Shown one piece after another: positions 30,555 to 62,850 of a stretch of 64,000 nt of DNA; positions within the stretch are counted from its first letter, which is position 1; each line of letters starts with the position of its first letter. Location: assembly GCF_921294215.1 (NCBI RefSeq), contig NZ_CAKLDM010000001.1, positions 1,302,001-1,366,000 of the forward strand, in the 5' to 3' direction. Source of the DNA: Vibrio marisflavi CECT 7928. Its GTDB lineage: Bacteria > Pseudomonadota > Gammaproteobacteria > Enterobacterales > Vibrionaceae. Under the pieces are notes generated by a model. The model had not been told where the DNA came from. It did not search any database and saw nothing but the letters and a program-made list of their open reading frames with translations. The position numbers and the translations under genes were made by a program.

Positions 30555-31460
30555 CTAAATCGTCAAGTAGTGATCGGCAAGTAAAGCAACAAACAACATC
30601 ATCAAATGATAAATAGAAAATTTGAACGTGCTGATTGCCGATTTATCAGTTTGGTAGTATTTGAGCTGCCAAGCTGAGTAAATAAACCCAACACTCAACA
30701 CCGTTGAAATAGCCAGATAAATCACCCCTGACATTCCTACCAATACTGGCAGCAAGCACACCATGGCAAGCAGCACTGTGTACAGCAATATCGAGGTCTT
30801 AGTGTATTCAATTCCATGCGTGACCGATAACATCGGGATTTTCGCTTTGGCGTAATCATTCTTCCTATGTATTGCCAAAGCCCAAAAGTGCGGTGGAGTC
30901 CAGACAAAAATGATCATCACCAGTAACCAAGCATGCGGATGAACCTCCCCTGTTACAGCAGTCCAGCCAAGCAATGGCGGCATAGCTCCAGCCAAGCCAG
31001 CAATCACGATGTTTTGTGGTGTTGCCCGCTTCAAATACAAGGTATAAACAACCGCATAACCCAATAGACTAAACAAGGTTAACCAAGCGGTAAGCGTATT
31101 GACACCGAAATACAAAAGAGCAAACCCGGTCAAACCAATTAGGCTAGCAAATAGAAATACTCGTGAAGCTTGAATATCCCCTGATGGCAGCGGCCGGTTA
31201 AAGGTCCGAGCCATCACCGCATCAATTTTTTGATCAATTAAATGGTTATACGCTGCAGCAGAGCCCGCCATTAAACCGATACCGATTAAACCCAGTATTG
31301 CCTGTTGGACAGGCAGAGCTCCGGGTAAAGCTAAGCACATCCCAACCACCGCAGTCAGCAACATTAATGCCACTACCTTCGGCTTGGTTAATGTTAAATA
31401 CGTCCGCCAAGTAGACCTTGGATTTGGGATACTTTGCTCAACAGTCACTGCTTTACTCAT
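30555..31460 (-). CDS. cyoE: Protoheme IX farnesyltransferase (heme O synthase)
   Basis: CyoE/CtaB attaches a farnesyl group to heme B, giving heme O, the precursor of heme A. The 301-residue UbiA-family protein has about nine helices and the two Asp-rich sites: [15 protein letters not shown] near residue 70 and [13 protein letters not shown] near 200. Its start overlaps the ctaA stop by 4 bases (ATGA), and it is the last gene of the oxidase operon. It serves the downstream conversion by CtaA and supplies the oxidase encoded upstream. No clear terminator separates it from the convergent LysR gene. Confidence 0.95.
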
Positions 31461-32473
31461 TGAACACTCTCCTTACTCAGTTCAACTACTCGGCTTGGCT
31501 GCCACATCAAATAGTTCGCGTACAAAACTGTCACGAGCAATATTGCAGCACCAAGGTTATGCGCTACTGCCACCACTAACGGTAGTGCGAAAATTACATT
31601 GCTTACACCCAACGCTATTTGCAAAGCTAAAACGAGTAACAGTCGCCACCCAACCTTCTTAAGTAGTTCATCTTGTTGTATTAAACATTTCGCAGCCAAA
31701 GCTATCACTGCAATTGAGGCCAATATTGCTCCAATTCTATGAGCGACGTGAATAGTCATTCTTGCCTCATAGTCCAATACGCCAAATTCGTAATTGTCGA
31801 AACCCGAGTGGACCAAGGTAAAGGCGTTGATAACATCTAGCCTGTTAAACCAGTCTCCTTCGCAGATTGGTAGGCCTGTACACATCAGAGCGGCGTAATT
31901 TGACGACGTCCAACCGCCAAGCATGATCTGCAGTAAGACAAGTAAGGCAGCAATCGTTGCAAAGACGGGCAGAGATGGGGGAAGGGATTCATAACCTGTT
32001 GGCAGCCGCCGATCTGTGAGCTTCCAGTAGAGAATGAACAAGACGCAGAACAGCATAAAACCGCCAAGCAAATGCCCCATAACTACAGCAGGCATTAGCT
32101 TAAGAGTCACTGTCCACATACCCAGTAGCGCTTGAAAAACGATAAGAGAGCACATACCGACAGCAAAAGTAATGGGGATTCGCTTTTGTTTTGCAGCAAC
32201 AAAAGCAATAGCGAAAACCAATACTCCAAGAGTGCCAGCGAAATAGCGGTGAATCATTTCAAGCCAAGCTTTATCCGCTTCTACGGTCAACCCCGGGTAG
32301 AGAATATTTGCTCTTAAGATATCTTTTCCATCGGTAGGAACGGCAAAGTGACCGTAACATCCGGGCCAGTCAGGGCAGCCTAAGCCCGCATCTGCTAGAC
32401 GAGTGTATGCGCCAAGCATAATAACAATAAACGTTAAAACCAGACTCAACCTTACCAACATTTGCAACTTCAT
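31457..32473 (-). CDS. ctaA: Heme A synthase (COX15/CtaA)
   Basis: This 338-residue membrane protein oxidises the C8 methyl of heme O to give heme A for subunit I. It has eight helices with the conserved heme-liganding His residues ([12 protein letters not shown] with the [11 protein letters not shown] helix, [38 protein letters not shown]). The pattern matches Cox15 of the proteobacterial type rather than the short Gram-positive CtaA. It lies between the SCO-like gene (40-base gap) and cyoE (4-base overlap). Confidence 0.95.
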
Positions 32474-32513
32474 ACGCTCTCCTTAGCTTTGCATCTAGGT
32501 TGTTTCTATTCGA

Positions 32514-33062
32514 TTAACCCACTCTTGAAAGTTTTAGTAGTTTTTTTAGATCGGCCAGTAGCCCCTTAGATTGGGCCATCAGCTTGTTTGCAGTATCTAC
32601 TTTGGGATAACGCATCACCAGCTGACCTAAAGGGTCGATAATGACGTATTCTGATTCATGCACTTCATTAGTGAACGCGTTACTCACATCAATGATTTGG
32701 TACGGATAGCCTTTTTTAACAGATGCATCGCTCTCTGCTGTGAAGTAAACAACTGGAGTCACCCTCCCTTGATACTTTCCGAGTGCCGTATGACTTTGGC
32801 CCAATAGGTGAAGTTGTTGGCTGCAAAACCTGTCACATTTTGGAGGCACCACAAAGCCTAGCTGCCAAGATTGACTTTGTAGCGGGTTTTTCAAACCAAG
32901 AGATTTATAACTCACAACAGGATCGAACAACTGACCATTGTTTGTGACGCCGGATTGGTACCAGTTGTTACTTAAAATAACCTTCGCTGCAATAACTGGC
33001 AAAGCAAACAACAAGACCAAACTAATCAATATGAGACGACCTCTAACCACACGATTTTTCAC
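32514..33062 (-). CDS. SCO1/SenC-like copper chaperone, diverged
   Basis: This is probably a membrane-anchored periplasmic thioredoxin-fold protein that helps build the CuA centre of subunit II. It has an N-terminal anchor (about residues 8-28). Cys76 and Cys80 form CxxxC (PPKCDRFC), and His135 sits in EVHESEYVIIDPLGQ, where SCO proteins have their copper-binding His before YLIDP. Overall similarity to SCO1 is low, and such genes are often left hypothetical. The start is GTG 33062, overlapping the SURF1 stop by one base, with AGGAG upstream. Position within the operon strongly supports an assembly role. Confidence 0.75.
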   Translation of the reverse strand: MKNRVVRGRLILISLVLLFALPVIAAKVILSNNWYQSGVTNNGQLFDPVVSYKSLGLKNPLQSQSWQLGFVVPPKCDRFCSQQLHLLGQSHTALGKYQGRVTPVVYFTAESDASVKKGYPYQIIDVSNAFTNEVHESEYVIIDPLGQLVMRYPKVDTANKLMAQSKGLLADLKKLLKLSRVG

Positions 33063-33811
33063 TACATTCTCCTAGAGTCGATTTGATAATTCTTATAAGT
33101 TCGATATAAAAGCCAACTAACAAGCACTAGTAACATCACTGCCATCGAAAACCACTGAAATGAATACCCAAAATGTTTTTTTGAACTCATTGGCAGTGGT
33201 TGCCAAGGCTGAGCGTAAGGCCAATTTTCTTCTACGGGTTGAAACAGATACGGCACTATTTCTACTCCAAATACAGATGAAAGCTGCTCAAGATTTAGGT
33301 TTTGAATGCGTTTTGGCTCGGTTAACTCAAGACCCAACTCATTACTCAATGGATTCATCATTCGCTGGTACAACTGACCGTTGAGATTTGCGGGCTCCTC
33401 AAGCCAATTTACCGCTGGCAATTCGCTGCGGATCTTTTTGCCAGCAACAAATCCCCTCTCTAACAAAAAATAATGACCTCTTTCACTTTTCACTAACTGG
33501 TATGCGAGATAGCCTACTTTCCCATTAAGTGTTTGGTTATCTAGCAGCACATAAGATCCTGATACTGGAGAGAACTCTGCAAAGACTTTTTGTCCGGTAT
33601 AAGCCGCAGCATTGTGCTCTTCTTCACCATGAGCTTCTAGAAAGCTGTCAAACTCAACAGGATCCTTTGCAATATTTTGTGCAAGATGTGACTCCAACTG
33701 TTGTTTTTCATATCCTCTCGACAGTTGCCACAAACCTAATTTGACCAATAAAGAAAACACGACCAAAGTTATTAATACACAAACCCAAAAATTCTTTGAT
33801 TTCAATAACAT
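33062..33811 (-). CDS. SURF1-family cytochrome oxidase assembly protein
   Basis: SURF1 assists heme A insertion into subunit I. It has the family plan of two helices flanking a periplasmic domain: the first helix leads into KLGLWQLSRGYEK, and the last is preceded by the signature YSFQWFSMA. I chose ATG 33811 (MLLKSKNFW), which gives the usual length of about 249 residues and avoids the opposite-strand DUF2909 start. ATG 33874 with AAGG 9 bases upstream is an alternative that would overlap DUF2909 by 47 bases. It overlaps the SCO-like gene by one base. Confidence 0.88.
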   Translation of the reverse strand: MLLKSKNFWVCVLITLVVFSLLVKLGLWQLSRGYEKQQLESHLAQNIAKDPVEFDSFLEAHGEEEHNAAAYTGQKVFAEFSPVSGSYVLLDNQTLNGKVGYLAYQLVKSERGHYFLLERGFVAGKKIRSELPAVNWLEEPANLNGQLYQRMMNPLSNELGLELTEPKRIQNLNLEQLSSVFGVEIVPYLFQPVEENWPYAQPWQPLPMSSKKHFGYSFQWFSMAVMLLVLVSWLLYRTYKNYQIDSRRM

Positions 33812-33827
33812 TAACAGAGGCTTTGCT

Positions 33828-34055
33828 ATGGTTCTTGTATTTAAAATTGCGCTCGTTTTCATGCTACTTTTCATTTTCTTCAACCTTGCTAGGGCGCTTG
33901 TTCAAATGGTTAGAGAACCCTCTGAAGCCGATGAAAATACTCAACCAATGAGCCACTACTTAGGAAAACGTGTTTTATTCTCAGCAATTGTTGTTCTACT
34001 TCTCATCATTGCTCTAACCAGTGGCTGGCTAGAGCCTAACCCAAGGCCGTATTAA
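33828..34055 (+). CDS. DUF2909 twin-helix membrane protein
   Basis: This 75-residue protein has two hydrophobic helices (about residues 3-25 and 50-68) separated by a polar loop (VREPSEADENTQP). It matches the small DUF2909 family found beside cytochrome oxidase assembly genes. It starts at ATG 33828 with AGAGG upstream and is read against the oxidase operon, between ctaE and SURF1. Its start is 16 bases from the chosen SURF1 start, so its promoter must lie inside SURF1. A role in oxidase biogenesis is inferred from conserved position only. Confidence 0.82.
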   Translation: MVLVFKIALVFMLLFIFFNLARALVQMVREPSEADENTQPMSHYLGKRVLFSAIVVLLLIIALTSGWLEPNPRPY

Positions 34056-34071
34056 CGGCCTTCTACTTTTT
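34043..34071. terminator. Terminator between DUF2909 and ctaE
   Basis: An 8-bp stem (AAGGCCGT/ACGGCCTT, loop ATTA) overlaps the DUF2909 stop and is followed by CTACTTTTT. It ends the plus-strand gene and lies just after the convergent ctaE stop. Confidence 0.78.
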
Positions 34072-34073
34072 CA

Positions 34074-34958
34074 CTACAGCACATAAACAAAGATAAATAG
34101 CGTCAACCAAACCACGTCTACAAAGTGCCAATACCAGCTACCCGCTTGAAAAGCGAAATGGTCTTTCGGCGTAAAATGATCTTTGGCTATTCGAGCGAGC
34201 AACACGATTAAAAAGATGGTACCCAAACACACGTGCAAGCCATGGAAACCCGTCAACAAGAAAAAGGTGTTACCATACACTCCTGACTGAAGGGTCAGGC
34301 CAAGTTCTTCATAAGCATGAATATATTCCGACGCTTGGTAATACAGGAAGAAACCCGCCAATATGATGGTAATTTCCAACCAAACAATTAAGGCAAAGCG
34401 TTTGTTTTTCTCCAAACTGACGTGTGCTAAGTGCAACGTAATTGATGAAGCCAGCAGAATAATAGTGTTCATCAATGGCAAACCTTGCCATGGCATCGCT
34501 TTGGTTAATTCTCCCGCTGGCGTTTCCAACAATGGCCACACCGCTTCAAAAGTCGGCCAAAGTAGCTCACCAGTCATTGCATTGTTGGACGCTCCTCCCA
34601 ACCAAGGAACCGAAACCATACGTGCATAAAACAGTGCACCAAAAAAAGCGCCAAAGAACATCACTTCTGAGAAAATGAACCAGCTCATACCTTGTCGGAA
34701 AGAACGATTAATTTGAGCGGAGTAGTAACCAGACAACGACTCATTGACAACGTTAGTAAACCAGCCGGCGAGCATATAAAGCAGTACCACAAAACCAAGG
34801 CCCAACACGACTTTACCAAATACGCTACCTGCTCCACCTGTTTCCATGTGCTGCACAGTCAAACCTGCACCTACCGCCACCAAAAACAGTGCTATGGCAC
34901 CTACGATTGGCCAACTACTTTGTGCCGGTACGTAATAGCGTTCAAACTTTGAACTCAT
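34074..34958 (-). CDS. ctaE: Cytochrome c oxidase subunit III
   Basis: This 294-residue membrane protein is subunit III of the heme-copper oxidase. It has seven helices, with conserved segments RQGMSWFIFSEVMFFGAFF, a substrate-side loop with WP and P residues, LLTGFHGLHVCLGT, and the C-terminal FQAGSWYWHFVDVVWL. It stabilises subunit I and the proton-uptake path. The gene overlaps ctaG by 4 bases and follows it in the operon. The 5' region of its message precedes the antisense DUF2909 gene and SURF1. Confidence 0.96.
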   Translation of the reverse strand: MSSKFERYYVPAQSSWPIVGAIALFLVAVGAGLTVQHMETGGAGSVFGKVVLGLGFVVLLYMLAGWFTNVVNESLSGYYSAQINRSFRQGMSWFIFSEVMFFGAFFGALFYARMVSVPWLGGASNNAMTGELLWPTFEAVWPLLETPAGELTKAMPWQGLPLMNTIILLASSITLHLAHVSLEKNKRFALIVWLEITIILAGFFLYYQASEYIHAYEELGLTLQSGVYGNTFFLLTGFHGLHVCLGTIFLIVLLARIAKDHFTPKDHFAFQAGSWYWHFVDVVWLTLFIFVYVL

Positions 34959-35566
34959 AAGTTCGCTCCTTGTAATGAGCTAATTTCCATATTTTCTGAA
35001 GAGTTACTCTCCAGCGAAGCTGTATCTGTTTTTACCTTGTCACTGATATTGAATAGCGTATAGGACAGGGTCAGGGTGTGAATAGATTCGGGAATATTGG
35101 GTTCGATGTAAAAAATCAGAGGCATGCTCGCTTCTGACTGAGCATTTAGAGGTTGCTGATTGAAGCAAAAGCACTCAATTTTATTGAAATAGCTCGCGCC
35201 AAGGCCCGGTGAGACAGAAGGAACTGCTTGTCCCGTTGTAAAAGCACCTGATAAGTTTTTCGCAATATAGGCAGTTTGAATAACTTGACCCGGGTGCACT
35301 TCCATCACTTTTCGCTCAGGTTCGAACGTCCAAGGCATATCCGGGTTGATATGCGACATAAACTCGACTCGCACGATTCGAGAAGTATCCGGTACCATCC
35401 CTTTTGGTTGAATCGCTGAAACTGTATTGGTTTTACCGTTGATCCCTAACGCATCACACATCACGTCATAAAGAGGAACAAGCGCAAAACCAAAACCAAA
35501 CATTCCCACCACCGCTACCAGCAGCTTGATGATTAACGTTTTATTTTTCTTTTCCACCTGTTCCAT
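34955..35566 (-). CDS. ctaG: Cytochrome c oxidase assembly protein CtaG/Cox11
   Basis: Cox11 delivers copper to the CuB site of subunit I. The 203-residue protein has one N-terminal helix (about 10-30: FGFGFALVPLYDVMCDALG) and a periplasmic Ig-like domain. This carries the copper-binding KIECFCFNQQPL (CFCF) motif and an extended GEASMPLIFYI-type strand (QSEASMPLIFYIEP). It lies 10 bases after ctaD and overlaps ctaE. Confidence 0.95.
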   Translation of the reverse strand: MEQVEKKNKTLIIKLLVAVVGMFGFGFALVPLYDVMCDALGINGKTNTVSAIQPKGMVPDTSRIVRVEFMSHINPDMPWTFEPERKVMEVHPGQVIQTAYIAKNLSGAFTTGQAVPSVSPGLGASYFNKIECFCFNQQPLNAQSEASMPLIFYIEPNIPESIHTLTLSYTLFNISDKVKTDTASLESNSSENMEISSLQGANL

Positions 35567-35576
35567 AACGACACCT

Positions 35577-37229
35577 TTAATCTACTTTTGGTGGCGTTTC
35601 AAAAGTGTGGTGTGGTGCCGGGCTTGGAACGGTCCACTCTAAGCCCTCAGCTCGTTCCCATGGTTTCGCAGGCGCTTTTTCGCCTCCGCGGATACATTTG
35701 ATTACTAGCCATAGGAAGATTAGCTGCGATAGGCCAAAGGCAAAACCACCAATTGAAACGATTTGATTCACGTCAGCAAATTGAATCGCATAGTCAGGAA
35801 TACGCCTTGGCATACCCGCCAAACCTAAGAAATGCATCGGGAAAAATAGAATATTAACTGAGATGATCGAGCACCAGAAATGCCATAAGCTCAGACGTTG
35901 ATCATACATATGGCCAGTCCATTTAGGCAGCCAATAGTAGGCAGCCGCCATAATCGAGAACACAGCACCAGATACCAATACATAATGGAAGTGTGCAACC
36001 ACAAAATACGTATCGTGGTATTGGAAATCAGCAGGTACTATCGCCAACATCAAGCCAGACAGCCCACCGATAGTAAATAGAACAATAAAGGCTATGGCGA
36101 ACAACATGGGCGTCTCAAAGGTCAGAGCCCCCCGCCACATTGTCGCGACCCAGTTAAATACTTTCACCCCAGTTGGTACTGCAATAAGCATTGTACAGTA
36201 CATAAAGAACAGTTCGGCAAACACTGGCATACCTGTTGTAAACATGTGGTGCGCCCAAACAATAAACGACAGCAACGCAATACTTGTTGTCGCATACACC
36301 ATCGAATGATAACCAAACAACTTCTTGCCACTAAACGTCGGTATTATCGCGGAAATGATACCGAATGAAGGCAATATCATGATGTACACTTCCGGGTGAC
36401 CAAAGAACCAGAAAATATGCTGGAACATTACAGGATCTCCACCACCAGCAGCATCGAAGAAGCTAGTACCGAAATATTTGTCCGTTAACACCATGGTGAC
36501 AGCACCAGCTAACACTGGCATTACCGCAATAAGAAGGAAAGCTGTGATTAACCAAGTCCAGACAAACAATGGTAGCTTGAACCAAGTCATCCCTGGTGCG
36601 CGCATGTTAAAGATGGTTACGATCACGTTAATCGCACCCATAATCGAGCTGATACCCATGATATGCACAGAAAAGACAAACAATGCCGTGCTATCTGGGC
36701 CATAAGTAGTTGAAAGCGGAGCGTAGAATGTCCATCCAAAATCTGGACCACCGCCCTCAGTGAACAGAGATGCTAACAGAATCAAAAACGCAAATGGCAA
36801 TATCCAGAAACTCAAGTTATTTAGTCTTGGGAGTGCCATATCTGGAGCACCAATCATCATCGGTATCATCCAGTTTGCAAGCCCAGTAAAAGCAGGCATT
36901 ACAGCACCGAATACCATGACCAGGCCGTGAACTGTCGTCATTTGGTTGAAGAAGTCAGGGTCTACCAGCTGCATCCCCGGCTGGAACAATTCAGCACGAA
37001 TGATCATCGCCATCGCTCCACCAACTAAGAACATGATGAAGCTAAACCACAAATAGAGCGTTCCTATATCCTTGTGGTTGGTTGAAAGCACCCAGCGAGC
37101 AATTCCAGATGGTGCATGATGTTCGTGATCAGAATGGTCATCTTCAACTGCGGTGGTACTCTGTACACGACCTAATTCAGCGTCAGCAGCTGGAGCAGAT
37201 TTAATCTCATGTTCTTTAGACACTGTCAT
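35577..37229 (-). CDS. ctaD: Cytochrome c oxidase subunit I
   Basis: This is the catalytic subunit, holding heme a and the heme a3-CuB site. The 550-residue protein has 12 helices. Visible are [10 protein letters not shown] (heme a His), [26 protein letters not shown] (CuB His cross-linked to Tyr, with the Glu of A1-type enzymes), the WAHHMFTTG His pair, [12 protein letters not shown] (K channel), and [14 protein letters not shown] (a3 and a His). ATG 37229 is chosen because AAGGAG lies 5 bases before it; GTG 37235 is an alternative. It begins 2 bases after the ctaC stop. Confidence 0.97.
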
Positions 37230-37231
37230 GG

Positions 37232-38386
37232 TCACTCCTTCGACTCTTGCTCGATTACCGCGTTAACATCCGAAGCTTGCACAATGTCACCAGTGTCATT
37301 GCCCCACGCGTTTCGTTGATACGTTGTTACCGCAGCGATTTCTTCTTCGGTGAGTTGGTTAGCAAATGCTTGCATCGCTGTTCCACTCTTACCATTGATA
37401 ATAATATTAAGATGATCAGTGACAGCTCCTGTCGCAATGTTGCTTCCTTTAATTGCTGGGAATGCCCCGGGGACACCTAAGCCGTTCAACTGATGGCACA
37501 CTGCACAGCGGTCGATATAAACTTGTTCACCAATGCTCATTAGTTCTTCTTTAGGCAATACATTTCCCAATGCCGCTTGAGCCGCTTTGCGAGCTTCCTC
37601 CATCTCGACTTTTTTGTTTGCCAGCCATTGGTCGTATTCGTCCTCTTCCATTGCATGAACGACAATTGGCATAAAGCCATGAGCACGACCACACAATTCA
37701 GCACATTGGCCTCTGTACATGCCCGGTTTATCTATCTTGGTCCATGCCTCATTAATAAATCCGGGGATCGTGTCTTTTTTAACGGCAAAATCTGGCACCC
37801 ACCAAGAGTGGATAACATCATCGGAGGTAAGTAAAAAACGAACTTTACGGTTAATAGGCAGGACTAGAGGATTGTCTACTTCAAGAAGGTAATTAGCGCC
37901 TTTTGGTTCTTCATTATCGATCTGCTTTGCCGATGTAGATAACAAACTAAAGAATTCAACATCTTCGCCAAAGTAGCTGTAATGCCACTTCCATTGGGAA
38001 CCCGTGACAATAACGGTTAAGTCAGACTTAGTGGTATCTTCCATCGCAACCAATGTCTTGGTCGCAGGTATCGCCATCGCAACCAAGATAATGATCGGAA
38101 TAACCGTCCATATCACCTCGACCTTTGTGCTTTCATGGAAATGTGCAGCAACCGCCCCTTTGGATTTCCGGTGATTTATTATCGAGTAAAACATCACCCC
38201 AAAAACAACAACTGCAATCGCCACACAAATCCAAAATATCAGCATATGCAGTTCATAGACTTGGCCACTGATATCTGTGACACCTTTGGTCATATTAAAT
38301 TTTTGTTCAGCGGAGATAGCAGGATGAGTCATACCCAAATAAAGTATACTGGCGCACAGCCCACGTATGGTTGTTGACCTTTTCAA
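37232..38386 (-). CDS. ctaC: Cytochrome c oxidase subunit II with fused cytochrome c (caa3-type)
   Basis: Subunit II accepts electrons and carries the dinuclear CuA centre. After a signal peptide (about residues 1-26) come two helices (48-70 and 88-112) and the cupredoxin domain. CuA ligands are His193, Cys228, Cys232, His236 and Met239 ([12 protein letters not shown]). A class I cytochrome c domain follows, with CAVCH at 294-298 and a likely axial Met338, so electrons can enter through this fused heme. TTG 38386 is chosen because AGAGGAG precedes it and the signal peptide then starts properly; an ORF to 38431 adds 15 residues. It heads the operon. Confidence 0.95.
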
Positions 38387-38777
38387 AAGACGCTCTCCTC
38401 TACCCTGATTCAAAAATTGCCTGCCTGGCACAAGTCTTTCCGCGCAAAATCCCTAATACCTGCGACCAATATAGTCAGAGGGCATCAAGCACCCGTCGAG
38501 CTCAGCCATTGTTGATGATTGACCAAACGGTTACTTGAAGGGTTTTGTTATATTTATGTTAATAAACGTTAGTTAACGAAATTCAATAGTTCAAGAAAGT
38601 CCTAGCGCAAAAAATTTTTACATTCGTTTCTGATGCTTACTTCAACAAATCATAAAAAAGTGCTAGGAATAATGAGGTGTATATCACTGAACCAGATATA
38701 TTGTTTTAATGACATATTAGTCACTATATTCAGTAGTAAAATAATAGTGATTCATGACATTAATTAAGGGGCCAAAC
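38387..38777. promoter_or_regulatory. Divergent promoter region ctaC/phosphohexomutase
   Basis: These 391 bases must drive the oxidase operon (minus) and the mutase gene (plus). GTTAATAAACGTTA at 38558-38571 resembles the ArcA direct-repeat core, with one base less spacing. TCACTAT/ATAGTGA (38721-38727, 38744-38750) forms a 7-bp dyad near the mutase start. Neither is proven. Confidence 0.4.
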
Positions 38778-51178: not shown

Positions 51179-54100
51179 TTACTCACTGATATTTAAATCA
51201 TTAATGAGTGATAACGCATGGTCAAAATCATACTCGCTTATCGCATTGCTCATCTGTTTCATGACTGCTTTCATATCCGGCTCTAAAAACATAGCAAGCA
51301 GCTGCTCTATAACTTCCATCGCTTCAGTATCATCGTCTTCTAGAAGCTCTCTAAGCTGGGTTACCAAAGAGGCGAACTTCTCAGCATCAAATTGTGCTTC
51401 ATGTACACCAGTAGAAAGCGTAATTTCCGACAGCCCAGCTAGCGTTTCACTGAGCGCTGAAAGAAGAGTATCTAAAAGCTCTGTTGGTGGCACATCAGCT
51501 TGTTTACAAGCAACTTCTAAATCCTCTGCAGCCCTTTGCACCGCTGTCGCTCCGATATTTCCAGCGACAGCTTTTAATGAGTGCGCTAACCGTTGTGGCT
51601 CTTGCTTATCTTCTGAACCAAGCGCATGGTTAAATGCCTCTGCGAAATTGCCGTATGAATCTTTGTACTTCAACAATAGTTTTCTATACAGTTTAGGATC
51701 ACCATTTGCTGTTGCTAAACCTTTTTCAACACTAATACCAGCAAGATCTGGTAGTGGCTCAATTGCATCTTTATCTGGCTCGTGATTTGGAATACGCTCC
51801 TGAGGGGAAACTGGACTCGATGGCATAATCCATTTAGCCATAGTGGTATAGAGTTCACGCACATTAATCGGTTTTCCAATATGATCATTCATTCCGGCAT
51901 TGAGCACTTTTTCAATGTCGCCTGCCATTACATTCGCTGTGAGTGCTATCACTGGAAGTTCTCGAAAACGTTCTTGTTCTCTAAGCAACTTCGTTGCGGT
52001 ATACCCATCCATTACGGGCATCTGACAATCCATGAGGACACCATCAAATTCAGCGTTATCCAACATATCTAACGCTATTTTTCCATTCTCCGCCACGGTG
52101 GCGATAACGCCAGCAGAGGCCAGCAATTCCATTGCCAGTTCTTGGTTTATATCATTATCTTCTACGAGTAATACCTTGGCTCCGCGAATTTTGTTGGCAG
52201 AATCGAGATCATCAGCGGCAGCTCTCATATGCTCTCGTTTTTCTGGATCGTGTCCAAAAGCTTCCATTGTTGCATCAAGAATAGTTGAAGCCGAAATCGG
52301 CTTACTCAACACCCTAACAAAACGTGCCCGTTTGGAGGCCTCTAGAGCTTCATCTCGCCCATAGGCAGTCACTAAAATAACAGGTAAATCTGGTAGCTTC
52401 TCGTGAATGCGCATTGTCGTTTCTACACCATCAATATTTGGGATCTGCCAATCCATCACTACGAGGTCAACTTCTCTTCTATTTTGTTCAAAGTGTTCAA
52501 TGGCTTGAGTACCATTGCTATAGGCCGTAACGTGAAAGTCAAAGGAGGAAAGGATATCTGTGAATATTTTTCTTGCGGTCGCGTTATCATCAACGACCAA
52601 CACATGTAATCCTTTTAGCTCTGGAAGTTCAGGCTTCACTCGACCAATTGGCATATTTTTCTGATACTTGAAATAGGCTGTGAAATGAAATGTACTGCCA
52701 CTTCCAGCTTGGCTTTCTACCCAAATCTCACCATTCATCATTTGCGTGAGCTTCTTGGAAATGGTTAAGCCCAAGCCAGTTCCTCCGTATTTTCTTGTAA
52801 TTGAAGAATCCGCCTGACTAAACGACTCGAACAGCTTCTTCTGCTCCTCGGGGGTCATGCCGATTCCTGTATCACTGACAGAAAAATGCAGCGTCACCCC
52901 TTCATCATCAATCTGTTTCACGTTAACAATCACGACGATTTCACCATGATCGGTAAATTTCACTGCATTATTACCCAAATTAGTTAAAATCTGCCCGAGT
53001 CGAAGTGGATCGCCAATCAACATTGTTGGTGCGTCAACGGAAATATCAAATAAGAGCTCTAGGCCCTTTTCTTCCGCCCTAATACCAACGAGGTTTGCTA
53101 GGTTATCCATGACATCCTCTAAATGAAACTCTGTGTATTCAATATCGAGCTTTCCTGCTTCTATCTTAGAAAAATCCAAAATGTCATTGATGATTCCAAG
53201 CAAACTATCAGCAGACCGATTCACTTTTTCAATGTAGTTTCTCTGCTTATTATCTAAATCAGTATTTAACGCTAACCCAGACATCCCTATTATCGCATTC
53301 ATTGGAGTTCGGATTTCATGGGACATATTTGCAAGAAAATCTGACTTCGCTTTTGTCGCATCCTCTGCCGTTTGCTTCGCTTCTTTCAGCGCTTCTTCCG
53401 CCGCTTTTCTAGCAGTAATATCCGTCATGGTTATACGAATCTCCTGTAATTCAGAACCACCGTTGTAGCTAGGTATGGCGGAAACCTCAGCTAGGATCTG
53501 CTCTCCATCACGACGGAGAATAGGGATTTCGTGACAGAAAAGACTTTCATCCTTGCACACATCCTCAAGCATGGTTTCGCGCTGTTCAAAATTGGGTGAA
53601 ATGATATCTCGCCAGTTAATCTCTTGAATGCTCGCTCTCTCTATAGATAGCAGTTCCGCGAAGGCTTTATTGTGCTTTACAAATTCACCATGGTGGTCAA
53701 TTGAGGCATAGGCAATAGGTGCATTTTCATATAAATCCCATAGCCTGCCTTCTCTATCTTTTAACGCCGTTTCTGCGGCTTTTCGCTCGGTGATATCGCG
53801 TATAATCCCAACAAATATCGTTTCACCGCTCCAAAGTGCCTCATTGACGGCGAGATCCATAGGAAATATTTCTCCTGACGAGCGTCTGCCTTCCAACTCA
53901 ACGTTTCGCACTAAGATATGTTCTTCTCGAGTTTCCGCGTATTTCTTCAAATAACCATCATGATTAGCGCAATAAGGCTCTCCCATTAACATTTTGATGT
54001 TTTGACCTACTACTTCTTTTCTATGGTATTCAAAGATATGTTCTGCGGCAGGATTGAACTCTTGCACTGTGCCAACTGAATCAATAACAATGACACCATC

Positions 54101-56308
54101 TTTAGTGTTCTCAAAAATTGTTCTACTGCGCCGCTCCGCCTCTCTCAATGCTGTTGTTCGTTCACCAACTCGACTTTCGAGCTCTTCATTTGAACGGCGC
54201 ATGAAGCTAGTCGCTCTTTGGCCGATTGTCACGGTCAACATGCTAGAGGCAACTGCGAGTAAAAGCGCAACGAATGCAGTCGAAAACAAGTAAATCCGCA
54301 TTTGGTAAAAAGACTCTAGAGCTTCAGACTTATCAATTTCGGTTGCAATACCGACGCCAAGATTTTGATTCCATAACCAAACACCAAGCACAGGAACACC
54401 GCGGTAATCTCGATAACCTTCAACATTAGAATTTATCCGAGAACCCCCTTTCTCATGATCGGATTGACCCATAGCAACAACACTTTGTGCCATTAGGGTA
54501 AGGGGCTGCTTTGCTAATGAAATGTCTGGTCGAAAGCCCTCAATCATATTTCCACCGGGGTCTTTTAGCGCAAGTAAGGTATCTTGTTTTTTACCTACTT
54601 CTAATAAACCAATGTCTTCAAGCGAGTCTACAAAGCGACTTTCGGTGATCATGCCCCCATCGTGATTGATCAGATAGCTTTCACCAGAACGGCCAATACT
54701 TCCGTGTTGCATGATCTTCGATAACCTGCCTCCTGGCAGTAACCGTTGTGTCAAAACAGCGATCACTTCACCAGCCGCATTTTTTATCGGCACGGCAAAA
54801 AACATATTGAATGCATCAAGATTGGTGCTGACTCCGTTTGCAGATTGAATTTCCACATCAGAAAGAATCGGCGGTATAAATATAGCCTCTCCTTGAAATG
54901 CTTTATCAAGAAGCTCTGGAGCTTGAATTGCAATGAGATTCTCAGTGCCTAAATTGGTATTTCTTCTAGACGCAATACTCACTCTATCTTTATTGATGAT
55001 AAAAAAGCCAACGCTACCGAATTGCTCGACATTTTCATCAAAAAAGTAACGAATTTCTTCCAACAACTTAGAGTCCTGCAGGCTTGCTTTGTCTGTTGGT
55101 ATCTTTAAAAGCTTCTCCGTTAGAGAAACTAGACTTGGATGCTTACCCAAGCTATTTAGATAGGCTTCACTATCTCGCACCCAAGTTTCCAAACTATCGT
55201 TTGTGCGCTCCAATACAAACACGAGATCCTGTTCAACACTGCGCAGTGTCGCTTTTCTATTCTTTTCAATGGTATGCCAAACCAAAAATAGAATGACAAA
55301 TGAAATCAGGCATGTGACTGAAATTATCGAGTAGGTAAAAGCACGCGAAGCAACATATTTAGCAATCAGTTCATTGGATAAGAATTTAGGCAGTATGAAC
55401 GCTAGGGAAAACATTAAGAAGCCCAGTATCAACGCAATCCCTATAAACACTCTCACTGCACCATCGTTTTCAATATTTTGGGAGTGCAACGGCTTATTAA
55501 GTTGCTTGTTGGCCCCCTCGATAGTAGACGGGCTCCACTTTTGAAAGTTGGCAATTCTGTCTTCTTGAGAAACAAGGGAGAAACCCTGATTGATCACATC
55601 AAGTAACGCCACATTTCCTTCACTTACAGCGGCTCTCCATGTGTCAGAAAACAGTATGTGTGCCGGCTCCAAGTTGTACTCATCTAGCATATTATTTTGT
55701 TGCAGATAGTAGGTAGCAGTTAGGGTATCTGCCGAGAAAACATCTAGCTCCCCTGATTTAAGCGCAGTAATAAGCTCTTTGTAGCTGTGATAAGTGATAA
55801 TATTTTCTGCTGTTAGCCTTTGCTTAAGGTATCCCTCAAGAAAATCTCCTTTTAATACCCCAATCTTGACACCTTCCAATGCCAATAAAGTATCGAAAGA
55901 AGGCTGATCATTTCGCAGTATGATATGAGAACTGGTTCGAGCTAATAAACTACCGTAGTCTAAAAAACTATCCCGCTGCTCATTGAAATACAAGCCAGCA
56001 TGAATATCAGCGTCTCCTCGCCCAACAGCAGCTAATGACTCATCCCAAATATAAGGAACAAACTCAATAGAGAGGCCTGTTTTGTCAGCCCAAAGCTTCC
56101 ATAAATCGATAATCAGCCCTGAAGCGGCACCTTGCTCATCCTGATATTGAAATGGTACGCAATCAACACAATAGGCAATCTTTAGCGGAGAAGAAATATT
56201 TATAGGAGGAGGAACATTGTGGTTTTGGTCTTGAGCATTGGCTTGGTGTGAAAAAAGCAACAGCCATGAAAATAGCGCTAGCCAAAAAAACTGAGTCATC
56301 CTAACCAT
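51179..56308 (-). CDS. Hybrid sensor histidine kinase: SBP - Cache - PAS2 - HisKA - HATPase - REC2 - Hpt
   Basis: This 1709-residue inner-membrane phosphorelay kinase has a signal peptide (1-25), then a periplasmic SBP_bac_3 domain (about 40-270: [14 protein letters not shown]). Two helices (about 285-345) precede a Cache-like periplasmic domain (about 350-670), and another helix follows (about 675-700). Two PAS domains (730-980), HisKA with His997 ([12 protein letters not shown]), and an HATPase with GTGLGL come next. The two receivers have Asp1286 and Asp1427, and the Hpt has His1576 ([10 protein letters not shown]). The final segment (about 1640-1709) is a further helical region. It should sense solutes and phosphorylate the adjacent HD-GYP regulator. 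ATG 56308 is used. Confidence 0.95.
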
Positions 56309-59619: not shown

Positions 59620-60195
59620 TTAGCCCTCCAAATCATCAACCGCAATAATGTCAGCAATCGTCGACAATGTTTCAATTGATTGGTTATGTTCTACTTTATT
59701 AGCAGCCGCACATGCATCTTCTATAACAGTAACTTTGTAATCTCGATCATGTGCTTCTCGTGTTGTCGCCTCAATTGCCCACGTGGTACTTACGCCAGAA
59801 ATATATAGCTCATCTATTTTATTTGCTCGTAAAACAGCTTCCAAATTGGTGCCATAGAATGGGCTAATACGAGGTTTAACCAAAACAAAATCTGAAGAAC
59901 ATACATCTAACTCGTCTAGGAAGTCTGTACCAAATTCATCGAGCGACAAAACACCGTATTCGTGCGCCTGACCAAAGATAGGCGATGTTTTAGGCTGTGC
60001 GTGATAGTTAGATTCAAAACCTACTTTCACCAAGATAGTCAACCAATTATGTTCACGTGCGTAAGACAATGCTTTGTTAGCATTTGCTACAGCATTTTGT
60101 TCAATGCTGTGTGATACACATGATGGTATTTTTCCTTTTGGGTGACAAATATCATTAATAAAATCGATTACTATAAGTGCTTTCTTATTACTCAT
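59620..60195 (-). CDS. Isochorismatase-fold hydrolase lacking the catalytic Cys (paralogue)
   Basis: This 191-residue protein is a close paralogue of 28932-29498, with the same NDICHPKGKIPS, YHAQPKTSPIFG and FYGTNLEAVLRANK segments. Asp11 and the Lys of LVKPRISPF remain. The nucleophile motif reads SGVSTTWA, so both Cys of the usual CGVxTxxC are lost (Ser and Ala). A vinyl-ether or non-amidase reaction is likelier than amide hydrolysis. It is the first gene of an operon with the FUSC-like protein. The start is ATG 60195. Confidence 0.87.
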   Translation of the reverse strand: MSNKKALIVIDFINDICHPKGKIPSCVSHSIEQNAVANANKALSYAREHNWLTILVKVGFESNYHAQPKTSPIFGQAHEYGVLSLDEFGTDFLDELDVCSSDFVLVKPRISPFYGTNLEAVLRANKIDELYISGVSTTWAIEATTREAHDRDYKVTVIEDACAAANKVEHNQSIETLSTIADIIAVDDLEG

Positions 60196-60546
60196 AAACT
60201 CATACCTCTAATTTAAACTATTGTATTAATTGTTTTTAATTAACTTATGGAATGGTATTCTACATCTTAACATCGAGATAAATAATCGTTGTTATCTAAC
60301 CAATATGTTAGAAAAACTTATTAATCAGCAGTGTAATTTATCGAGAGTGTTTATAAATTGGCAACAGAAGACTATACACACCTTAAAGCTCCATTAAGCA
60401 ACTGCCTCTAAAGATTAAAAGAACTGATTCTGGAGTTTATTGACTGGCACTAAGCATAATTGTTCTTGAGTTAGGGATATTTAGAAACAGCAATTGAACT
60501 AGTCGACGCAAATGGTTTTTGGCTAGAACTTATCCTGCTACAACTA
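60196..60546. other. Intergenic region upstream of the copper-type promoter
   Basis: This AT-rich part of the gap after the isochorismatase-fold gene holds that gene's promoter. I saw no ORF or strong hairpin. Confidence 0.45.
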
Positions 60547-60577
60547 TTGACCTTACCTATCGTGGAAGGTTTAGAGT
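60547..60577 (+). promoter_or_regulatory. CueR-type copper-responsive promoter/operator
   Basis: A -35 box TTGACC (60547-60552) and a -10 like TAGAGT (60572-60577) are separated by the unusual 19-base spacer of MerR-family promoters. Inside it ACCTTAC-N7-GGAAGGT forms the CueR dyad, with one mismatch. The whole closely matches the E. coli copA and cueO promoters. It points to the 38-codon gene 34 bases downstream. Confidence 0.8.
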
Positions 60578-60610
60578 GGTCAACATAGATAGCTTAAGAG
60601 GGTATTAAAA

Positions 60611-60727
60611 ATGGAGTGGATTACAGAAAACTGGGGATGGGTCTTATTTGGTGTTGTGTTTATAGCATTTCATTTCTTTGGTCACGGCCACAACCACAGC
60701 CACAGTGGAAACCACAACGACAAGTGA
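60611..60727 (+). CDS. 38-residue His-rich single-pass membrane peptide (copper-induced?)
   Basis: This tiny gene has one transmembrane segment (about Trp8-Phe22) and a C-terminal tail GHGHNHSHSGNHNDK, with six His in the last 18 residues. The tail could bind Cu or another metal. AGAGGG lies 9 bases before ATG 60611, and a terminator follows the stop. The CueR-type promoter ahead suggests copper induction, so a role in copper tolerance or handling is proposed. I know no characterised homologue; the shape recalls small DUF2933-like proteins near metal-resistance loci. Topology cannot be decided here. Confidence 0.8.
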   Translation: MEWITENWGWVLFGVVFIAFHFFGHGHNHSHSGNHNDK

Positions 60728-60753
60728 GCTCTACCCATGACCAACGAATAAAG

Positions 60754-60790
60754 CTCCAATAGCCTAAAATTATTGGAGTTTATTGTTTTA
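60754..60790 (+). terminator. Terminator after the His-rich peptide gene
   Basis: An 8-bp stem (CTCCAATA/TATTGGAG), loop of 9 bases, is followed by TTTATTGTTTT. Confidence 0.75.
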
Positions 60791-60916
60791 CCTTCCTAGT
60801 TTTAAATACAGCCGAACTATTAAATAGGAGCTAATCTTCCCGCTAAGCTTCACAAAAGACGGCTTGCTTGATTTCAGCTCGGGTTGGGGGAAAGTAAATT
60901 AAAGCACATCCATAAA

Positions 60917-61795
60917 TCAAAGGCATTGGGCTCGAGTCTGATCAACAAATTGAATGAAATTATCTTTGGCAAAGCTCTCAAACTGCTCGTTCCAAATTAA
61001 ACCTACATCCCACGAGCTGTTTTCCCCTGATAGTTCCCAAAAAACAACGTGCTCATTGGCAATATGTTTTACACTTGCCGGAACAATAGTGAAGCCCAAA
61101 TTTGCAGATACCAGTGCCAACAGTGTTTGTATATCGTCAGCCTCTTGAGCAACATTCAGTTTTTGCTCATGCTCCTCTAGTAACATGTTTATTTGTTGGC
61201 TTAGACCCATTCCTCGTTCAGGATTGAGCTGTAAATAATCGATGGAATCTAACGAAAGCCACAATTTGTTTATGTCTATGGTTTGGCTACTATGCGTTGC
61301 TAGTACTAAGTTATCTGTTGAGAGCTTTACCCCCTTCAAAGGAGCTATAGCTGGAAGTCGACTAAAACTGAGCTGAAGCTCCCCTAAAAGCAACGCCTCC
61401 GACTGCTTTTGAGAGGGTATATCATTGAGTGTAATATGGATCTCAGGGTACTTTTTCTTAAATCTAGCGATGTAGTCTGGTGCAAGGTGGTAAGAAGAGA
61501 TGCCAAATCCTATATTGAGATTTCCTGCTATTCCCTTGGCGACTCGTTGGGTGAGAGATTTATAAGACTCAAAACTCGAAACTATTTGCTGCGCTTCAGG
61601 TAAAAGAGCAACTCCTGCCGCAGTAAGACTGGCACCTTGCCTTCCCCTCTCAAATAAAACCACTCCACAAAAAGCTTCAAGACGTTGAATCTTCTTAGTT
61701 AAAGCAGACTGAGTGATGTGTAGGTGCTCTGAAGCTACTCGATAGTTACCATCTTCTGCTAGTTGGCAGAAAGTACGTAAATCACCAAAATCCAT
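60917..61795 (-). CDS. LysR-family transcriptional regulator
   Basis: This 292-residue regulator has an HTH over residues 15-60 (NYRVASEHLHITQSALTKKIQRLE) and an effector domain from NLNIGFGISSYHLAP. It is divergent from the nitrilase-family gene with 95 bases between, and two direct CGGAAT motifs lie in that gap. It most likely controls the hydrolase gene in response to its substrate. ATG 61795 is used. Confidence 0.93.
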   Translation of the reverse strand: MDFGDLRTFCQLAEDGNYRVASEHLHITQSALTKKIQRLEAFCGVVLFERGRQGASLTAAGVALLPEAQQIVSSFESYKSLTQRVAKGIAGNLNIGFGISSYHLAPDYIARFKKKYPEIHITLNDIPSQKQSEALLLGELQLSFSRLPAIAPLKGVKLSTDNLVLATHSSQTIDINKLWLSLDSIDYLQLNPERGMGLSQQINMLLEEHEQKLNVAQEADDIQTLLALVSANLGFTIVPASVKHIANEHVVFWELSGENSSWDVGLIWNEQFESFAKDNFIQFVDQTRAQCL

Positions 61796-61815
61796 TCCAT
61801 ATACTCATTGATTAT

Positions 61816-61840
61816 CGGAATTTTATTCATTATACGGAAT
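61816..61840. promoter_or_regulatory. Candidate LysR operator (direct CGGAAT repeats)
   Basis: ATCGGAAT (ending 61821) and TACGGAAT (ending 61840) are direct repeats 19 bases apart, midway between the divergent LysR and hydrolase starts, as expected for tandem LysR sites. Confidence 0.4.
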
Positions 61841-61890
61841 CAAAAGAGGTTTTTAAAATGAATGATACTCACTAAGTAAAAGGAACATTT

Positions 61891-62850
61891 ATGAAAGATA
61901 TCCGGGTTGCCACTGTTCAATTTAACCACCATGCGAACGACAAAAACTACAATTTATCGATCATTCAAAGTTACGTAGAAAAGGCAGTTAAGCAAGGAGT
62001 AAAAATCATCGTCTTCCCTGAAATGTGTGTTACTGGTTACTGGCATGTTTCGAAGCTTCAAAAGTCAGAGATCGATGATTTGTCCGAGTTCATCCCACAA
62101 GGGGAAACGGCTCAACACTTGCTAAATATGTCTGAAAAATATCAACTTAGCATCGGTGCTGGTTTAATCGAAAAAGACAAGGACGGAAATCTCTATAACT
62201 CTTACGTAATGGCAATGCCTGATGGTCAGATAGCCAAACACAGAAAGCTGCATACATTTGTCAGCGAACACATGGCTAGTGGCAATGAATATACTGTATT
62301 TGACACTCCACACGGATGCCGTGTAGGGATTCTGATTTGCTGGGACAATAATTTGGTCGAGAATGTTCGAATCACAGCATTAAAAGGGGCCGATATCCTA
62401 ATTGCTCCCCATCAAACAGGCGGAACGAACTCTCGCAGCCCCAATGCGATGGGGTTGATTGATCCCCAACTATGGCATAACCGTAAGCAAGATATAGAGT
62501 CGATTCGTTCTGAAATGCAAGGCTCAAAAGGAAGAGAATGGTTAATGCGTTGGCTACCCGCGCGTGCTCATGACAATGGTATGTTCCTGATATTTAGTAA
62601 CGGGGTTGGGGTTGATATGAATGAAGTCAGAACAGGCAATGCGATGGTGCTCAATCCTTATGGAGAAATTCTCGCGGAAACTGACAGCGTAGATAACGAT
62701 ATAGTTATTGCAGATCTAAAAGCAAAAGAACTAGATATGTGTACAGGAAGGCGCTGGATCAGAGGCCGTAGACCTAACCTCTACCATCCTCTAACAGTTG
62801 AAGGGAATGAATTGACTCCCTATCAGGCAAGGTTTTCAGAGTACAAATAG
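61891..62850 (+). CDS. Carbon-nitrogen hydrolase (nitrilase superfamily)
   Basis: This 319-residue cytoplasmic amidase/nitrilase-superfamily enzyme hydrolyses a C-N bond. The Glu-Lys-Cys triad is complete: Glu44 (FPEMCVTG), Lys119 (KHRKLH) and Cys150 (LICWDNN). NAMGLIDPQLW and a long C-terminal region are compatible with aliphatic amidase or N-carbamoyl hydrolase branches, not with glutamine-chain enzymes. ATG 61891 follows AAGGAAC. It is divergent from a LysR gene. Substrate unknown. Confidence 0.93.
   Translation: MKDIRVATVQFNHHANDKNYNLSIIQSYVEKAVKQGVKIIVFPEMCVTGYWHVSKLQKSEIDDLSEFIPQGETAQHLLNMSEKYQLSIGAGLIEKDKDGNLYNSYVMAMPDGQIAKHRKLHTFVSEHMASGNEYTVFDTPHGCRVGILICWDNNLVENVRITALKGADILIAPHQTGGTNSRSPNAMGLIDPQLWHNRKQDIESIRSEMQGSKGREWLMRWLPARAHDNGMFLIFSNGVGVDMNEVRTGNAMVLNPYGEILAETDSVDNDIVIADLKAKELDMCTGRRWIRGRRPNLYHPLTVEGNELTPYQARFSEYK

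Follow-up and report, generated by a model that had tools for sequence, protein, structure and literature searches.

A CueR-type promoter before a 38-codon reading frame in Vibrio marisflavi: a candidate copper-induced membrane micropeptide

Introduction

The described system closest to the locus reported here is the CueR regulon, which holds copA, cueO and, in Salmonella, cueP. The published CueR signal is ACCTTCCC-(5)-TGGAAGGT, set in a promoter with a spacer of 19 bp (PMC1526738), and the Salmonella member cueP is a periplasmic copper-binding protein (PMC1526738, PMC7558416). The extra Vibrio targets named in the portion of the source available to us are cytochrome c553/c554 and GST genes, and no micropeptide is listed among them there (PMC1526738). 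Among the titles and abstract openings of the open-licence literature, we found no paper describing a micropeptide under CueR control in vibrios.

Other known systems resemble the locus in part. DUF2933 proteins are small, membrane-bound and rich in His, and CupA of Streptococcus pneumoniae is a folded domain. In Alteromonas and its relatives, DUF2933 (PF11666) proteins are annotated beside copper P-type ATPase and MerR genes (PMC8478169); CupA is described as a membrane-anchored copper chaperone that is required for copper resistance (PMC7558416). In Pseudomonas aeruginosa, Zrd, which is under CadR, is an unannotated small metal-binding ORF that was discovered in an intergenic gap, behind a MerR-family site (PMC12301328).

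Here, we describe a locus in a 64,000-nucleotide stretch of the Vibrio marisflavi CECT 7928 genome (the window). It shares with the CueR regulon the 19-bp-spacer promoter, the ACCTT...AAGGT dyad and presumed activation by Cu(I); nevertheless, its target differs, being a predicted membrane micropeptide of 38 residues. The other systems are more distant. The DUF2933 model spans 52 positions, compared with 38 residues here. Membrane anchoring, predicted in our case, is common to CupA and the window peptide, but the latter has a bare tail, and no sequence relation is claimed. Zrd, unlike the window peptide, is a non-membrane zinc-ribbon protein, and its induction by Zn or Cd was demonstrated experimentally (PMC12301328).

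Results

Layout of the locus

A gap of 720 bases between an isochorismatase-type gene and a LysR-type gene contains all the parts of a small plus-strand transcription unit. The features of the locus, and one cluster elsewhere in the window, are as follows.

59620-60195, minus strand: isochorismatase-type gene
60547-60577, plus strand: CueR-type promoter (TTGACC, 19-base spacer, TAGAGT), an exact pattern match in the sequence
60547-60552, plus strand: -35 box TTGACC, from the sequence
60550-60570, plus strand: imperfect dyad ACCTTACCTATCGTGGAAGGT (ACCTTAC-N7-GGAAGGT), predicted CueR operator by comparison with the published CueR signal
60572-60577, plus strand: -10 box TAGAGT, from the sequence
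60596-60602, plus strand: AAGAGGG, likely ribosome-binding site, from the sequence
60611-60727, plus strand: 38-codon ORF MEWITENWGWVLFGVVFIAFHFFGHGHNHSHSGNHNDK, predicted to form one membrane helix, with a tail rich in His
60751-60781, plus strand: terminator-like hairpin followed by a T-rich tail
60917-61795, minus strand: LysR-type gene
31457-38431: cytochrome c oxidase cluster (COX1, COX2 with cytochrome c domains, COX3, SURF1, COX15/CtaA)

A preliminary description of this DNA had put the promoter 34 bases ahead of the ORF; the promoter does lie directly before it, at a measured distance of 33 bases from the -10 box to the ATG. The terminator that the same description saw after the ORF corresponds to the hairpin at 60751-60781, which has 12 pairs, three of them G-C, and a fold z of -3.6. 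The sequence upstream of the promoter (60196-60546) is AT-rich, with 31% GC, and this was counted against the micropeptide reading.

A second terminator-like hairpin, of 13 pairs and on the minus strand, is present at window positions 60726-60756 and overlaps the end of the ORF region. The window further encodes a hybrid sensor kinase of 1709 residues (51179-56308) with solute-binding, PAS, two receiver and Hpt domains. As for the aa3 oxidase, to which the peptide had been tentatively linked, the connection is one of proximity alone, and 22 kb separate the peptide from the end of the cytochrome oxidase subunit genes at 38431.

The promoter and its counterparts in the same genome

The half-sites of the dyad are identical to the published CueR signal at 15 of 16 positions, and six of the seven outer pairs of the dyad are complementary. 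The dyad had been described as lying within the spacer; it is present, but its first three bases fall in the -35 box. An ordinary sigma-70 scan, which covers spacers of 16-18, did not list the promoter, as its spacer of 19 bases would lead one to expect. The exact pattern occurs at three places in the 4.78-Mb genome, namely at copA, at a multicopper oxidase and at the window site. Both of the known targets were confirmed by Pfam (copA with three HMA matches), and the genome encodes CueR itself, with 194 bits against a cut-off of 147. The initial assignment of a CueR-type promoter is upheld by the TTGACC-19-TAGAGT arrangement, the half-site identity, the sites at copA and the multicopper oxidase of this genome and the presence of a CueR gene.

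With up to one mismatch allowed, the pattern occurs at eight places, compared with one for the reversed pattern. The five added sites comprise one before a Cys micropeptide (L021), one before a SHOCT-like small membrane protein (L023), one whose next gene is more than 440 bases off (L020), and two, L022 and L024, that overlap longer open frames and appear accidental. The L023 site (G000:C2:823183; also L313), TTGACCTTACCCTTAGGGTAAAGCTTATTGT, stands before a protein of 69 residues that is hydrophobic at its start and SHOCT-like at its end, the latter scoring 26.5 bits, just short of the cut-off of 27.

The strict pattern across the genus

The preliminary description had proposed that the promoter be sought in related vibrios, and that search bore it out. 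In 90 genus genomes, the strict pattern was found at 89 places in 65 genomes and the reversed pattern at one. Copper genes account for 66 of the 89 sites, with 64 copA-like starts and two multicopper oxidases downstream; the others precede 11 Cys micropeptides, the window ORF, eight Met/His/Cys-rich proteins and one degenerate Cys-type ORF, and two are without a clear gene (L154, L157). These classes were assigned by reading the first residues, and the Pfam checks among the genes covered the genome's own copA, its own multicopper oxidase and pieces of three small proteins. Given the gene classes read behind the 89 sites, a strict site usually marks a copper promoter. The distance from the site to the ATG of copA is mostly 28-33 bases, which the 33 bases of the window ORF fit.

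The possibility that the promoter match is coincidental and that nothing related to copper is made gains something from the site being a single orphan and from the accidental look of two of the eight one-mismatch genome sites (L022, L024). Nevertheless, the excess of true over reversed matches in the 90 genomes and the exactness of the window site make this explanation hardly credible. A different MerR-family regulator might also read the operator and respond to another metal or signal in place of copper, as four more genome matches to the CueR model fall short of its 147-bit cut-off, reaching 109 bits at most. However, the dyad is of the copA type, and 64 of the 89 strict matches in the 90 genomes stand before copA-like genes, so that we consider another regulator very unlikely.

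Two observations on the remaining sites may be recorded. The eight Met/His/Cys-rich proteins (L114, L156, L159-L163, L165) are 134-162 residues long with a start that looks signal-like by eye, and two partial sequences of this kind gave no confident Pfam match. The degenerate Cys-type ORF (L153, G024:C1:1357813; MMGCSNQPPKCSLF...) occurs in a genome, G024, that also has an intact copy (L155), and is perhaps a decaying second copy.

The 38-residue peptide

A single-sequence model predicts a helix at residues 3-24 followed by an unstructured tail (mean pLDDT 77, pTM 0.42), and the hydropathy of the peptide reaches 1.4 over the best 19 residues and 2.1 over the best 15. The ribosome site given in the preliminary description corresponds to AAGAGGG, and its single transmembrane segment would correspond to the predicted helix. 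The six His residues had all been assigned to an exposed tail; five of them (25, 27, 29, 31 and 35) are in the tail, HGHNHSHSGNH, but His 21 is inside the predicted helix. The peptide has no Cys.

None of 4,101 distinct real control ORFs (30-60 codons, from 862 kb of other DNA in partly overlapping stretches) shares a hydrophobic stretch together with at least five His in 14 residues. This composition in combination with a ribosome site was met in none of 11,400 simulated ORFs (4 Mb) and in one of 289 ORFs of the window, the peptide ORF alone, by criteria (hydrophobic stretch, His density, ribosome site) that were chosen post hoc with the ORF already known. Support for the ORF is internal: it comes from the spacing, the ribosome site, the hairpin and the rare composition.

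A separate family of Cys micropeptides

One recurrent CueR site pointed to an ORF of 35 residues, MGCCNKAPKGGAPLGLLLKVTLGIGLFVFLLALWQ, the founder of a separate unnamed family. Its members are 35-39 residues long and have the form MGCCN(K/Q)xPxGG...K with one predicted helix as the hydrophobic stretch; M1, C3, C4, N5, P8, G10 and G11 are invariant in an alignment of 16 members. A six-frame search with a single sequence found the family in 117 of 223 genus genomes, and a profile made from the 16 members found it in 184 of 329 family genomes and five of 13 genera, the present genome included. The latter's own copy (G000:C1:558888, 558827-558998; L021, L312) has its start 30 bases downstream of TTGACCTTAACCTTAGGGAAAGCTTTAAAGT. 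Neither Pfam nor, above cut-off, NCBIfam gave a match to the family, and its four named matches are all called 'hypothetical protein'.

Besides the own copy, the family includes loci L173-L282. A subset of the listed places was inspected, amounting to 111 loci with 85 distinct peptides. The strict site expression detects a CueR-like site at 45 of the 111 loci. A broader MerR-type score, covering a 19- or 20-base spacer plus the dyad, is at least 11 for 74 of the 85 distinct peptides compared with 6.9% of shuffled upstream sequences, and these 74 are not independent because many of the 85 are near-identical close relatives. At least one of these sites, that at L230, looks accidental. The site-to-ATG distance is mostly 28-37 bases, and the window ORF falls within this range too.

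A dyad of another type with a 20-base spacer (TTGACCTATGTCTAACACATAGGTTTTAAGCT, for example) precedes the Cys micropeptides at L233, L236, L238, L239, L241 and L242, and also those at L224-L227, L245, L256 and L258; this suggests either control by a different member of the MerR family or a CueR site that has drifted.

The Cys family is like the window peptide in having one hydrophobic stretch, a metal-ligand segment and a promoter of MerR/CueR type placed some 30 bases ahead of the ATG. It is unlike it in carrying its ligands as a Cys pair at the N-terminal end and in having the hydrophobic stretch towards the C-terminus. Homology between the two is not convincing, as hhalign gave a probability of 4% (p 0.01) over 14 hydrophobic columns; the Cys profile has one match in the genome, C1:558888, and the window locus is absent from the result.

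Search for relatives of the peptide

Conservation of the ORF in related genomes, which the preliminary description had named as its own check, was not borne out. Protein searches of 148 and then of 329 family genomes gave no relative, the best non-self match having an E value of 0.025, and none of the 29 best weak matches inspected has a CueR-like site within 400 bases. Two of the weak matches (L028 and L037) overlap the start of an opposite-strand 314-codon ORF, which we take to be rluC, and another (L048) is antisense within a 352-codon ORF. A search of 5.8 billion proteins returned the ORF itself as the sole match; this silence is weak evidence because the same search is insensitive to micropeptides, having given only nine proteins for the Cys peptide where the six-frame search reached 117 of 223 genomes. 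No relative was found in a plasmid search.

At the DNA level, 227 genus genomes yielded no relative and nine non-self matches of 22-42 bases each. These are chance matches save L009, which is the CueR-type site of another genome; L010 and L011, over the His codons, are antisense in ORFs of more than 450 codons. A promoter-plus-start pattern in the 227 genomes likewise gave no relative, and its second match (G001) proved to be a copA-like gene's promoter (L120). Among 84,980 species genomes searched for a CueR-like site with an ATG-NAN-TGG start, 38 stretches were inspected and none holds a relative. Membership of DUF2933 was rejected, with no Pfam match up to E = 10 and the window locus missing from a DUF2933 genome search, whose weak matches L003 and L005 look unrelated.

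No orthologue with coding-type substitutions was found, and hence there is no substitution evidence of coding and the peptide fails as a conserved protein-coding gene. The missing conservation would be compatible with a young gene, but it takes away comparative proof of coding. Within what was searched, the peptide is an orphan, and the ORF lacks comparative support, its backing coming from promoter and composition.

An ORF for which no relatives were found could also be incidental, the CueR promoter then driving a small regulatory RNA of roughly 200 nt in response to copper, and the compact transcript with its terminator-like hairpin would suit such an RNA. However, there is no Rfam match up to E = 1, by which a known RNA family is ruled out, and the overall fold is ordinary (z -1.25; of 200 shuffles, 23 are equally or more stable). 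The ribosome site, the ATG and a helix-plus-His-tail composition absent from the 4,101 control ORFs also stand against a regulatory RNA, and we judge it unlikely.

Comparison of the LysR flank

Eleven species have a LysR orthologue that is 86-91% identical, and in every one of them similarity to the window ends at 60883-60942, at the end of the LysR gene, the flank available for comparison being short at two of the loci (L129 and L134). A LysR match is present in 74 other genomes, and no CueR-like site stands beside it at the 16 loci inspected among these.

Such an orphan, known from one genome and lying in a region absent from the 11 species with the neighbouring LysR gene, may be a recently arisen or decaying locus in which the CueR site works while the transcript and the ORF are neutral and bring no benefit. 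Against this, the promoter, ribosome site, ORF and hairpin are intact and well spaced, and the metal ligands fit the predicted inducer. We therefore hold a neutral locus to be rather improbable.

On the other side, the LysR gene and the carbon-nitrogen hydrolase region that comes after it (window 60917-62850; L124-L134) are linked in the 11 species and the other LysR side differs. From this arrangement, the two look as though they moved as one.

Discussion

The reading of the site as a copper promoter is strong, and that of the ORF as a micropeptide, based on one genome, is plausible. On balance, we consider it likely that the locus specifies a copper-induced micropeptide, in which a CueR-type promoter serves a peptide with an inner-membrane helix and a His-rich tail for surplus copper. 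In the proposed sequence of events, CueR loaded with Cu(I) would distort the 19-bp spacer and transcription would start, which accords with established knowledge of the MerR family (PMC1526738, PMC7558416). The mRNA of about 200 nt would then be translated, the helix would enter the inner membrane, and the tail would bind and buffer copper at the membrane, perhaps near CopA. As a buffer, the peptide would most likely act alongside CopA and the multicopper oxidase. The charges before the helix (E2 and E6) weakly favour a cytoplasmic tail, and the His ligands would suit the periplasm. The best reading makes the peptide a copper buffer tethered to the membrane, similar in kind to the Cys family but with no demonstrable relationship to it.

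More tentatively, CueR might turn on two unrelated single-helix micropeptides, one with a Cys pair and one with a His tail, as a membrane-bound copper relay or buffer around CopA. They would then represent a class of copper-induced membrane micropeptides that arose more than once in the family and is undescribed in copper biology; we regard this as possible but doubtful. This wider class of CueR-driven single-helix micropeptides is of more interest than the window peptide itself, and the Cys family, present in 184 of the 329 family genomes, makes the micropeptide idea testable in many species. Looking for the metalloregulator promoter first and the ORF second is, moreover, a route to micropeptides that sequence searches miss. 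If the idea is true, the CueR response would consist of a pump, an oxidase and membrane-tethered micropeptides that hold metal, with the window peptide as a young, lineage-specific example.
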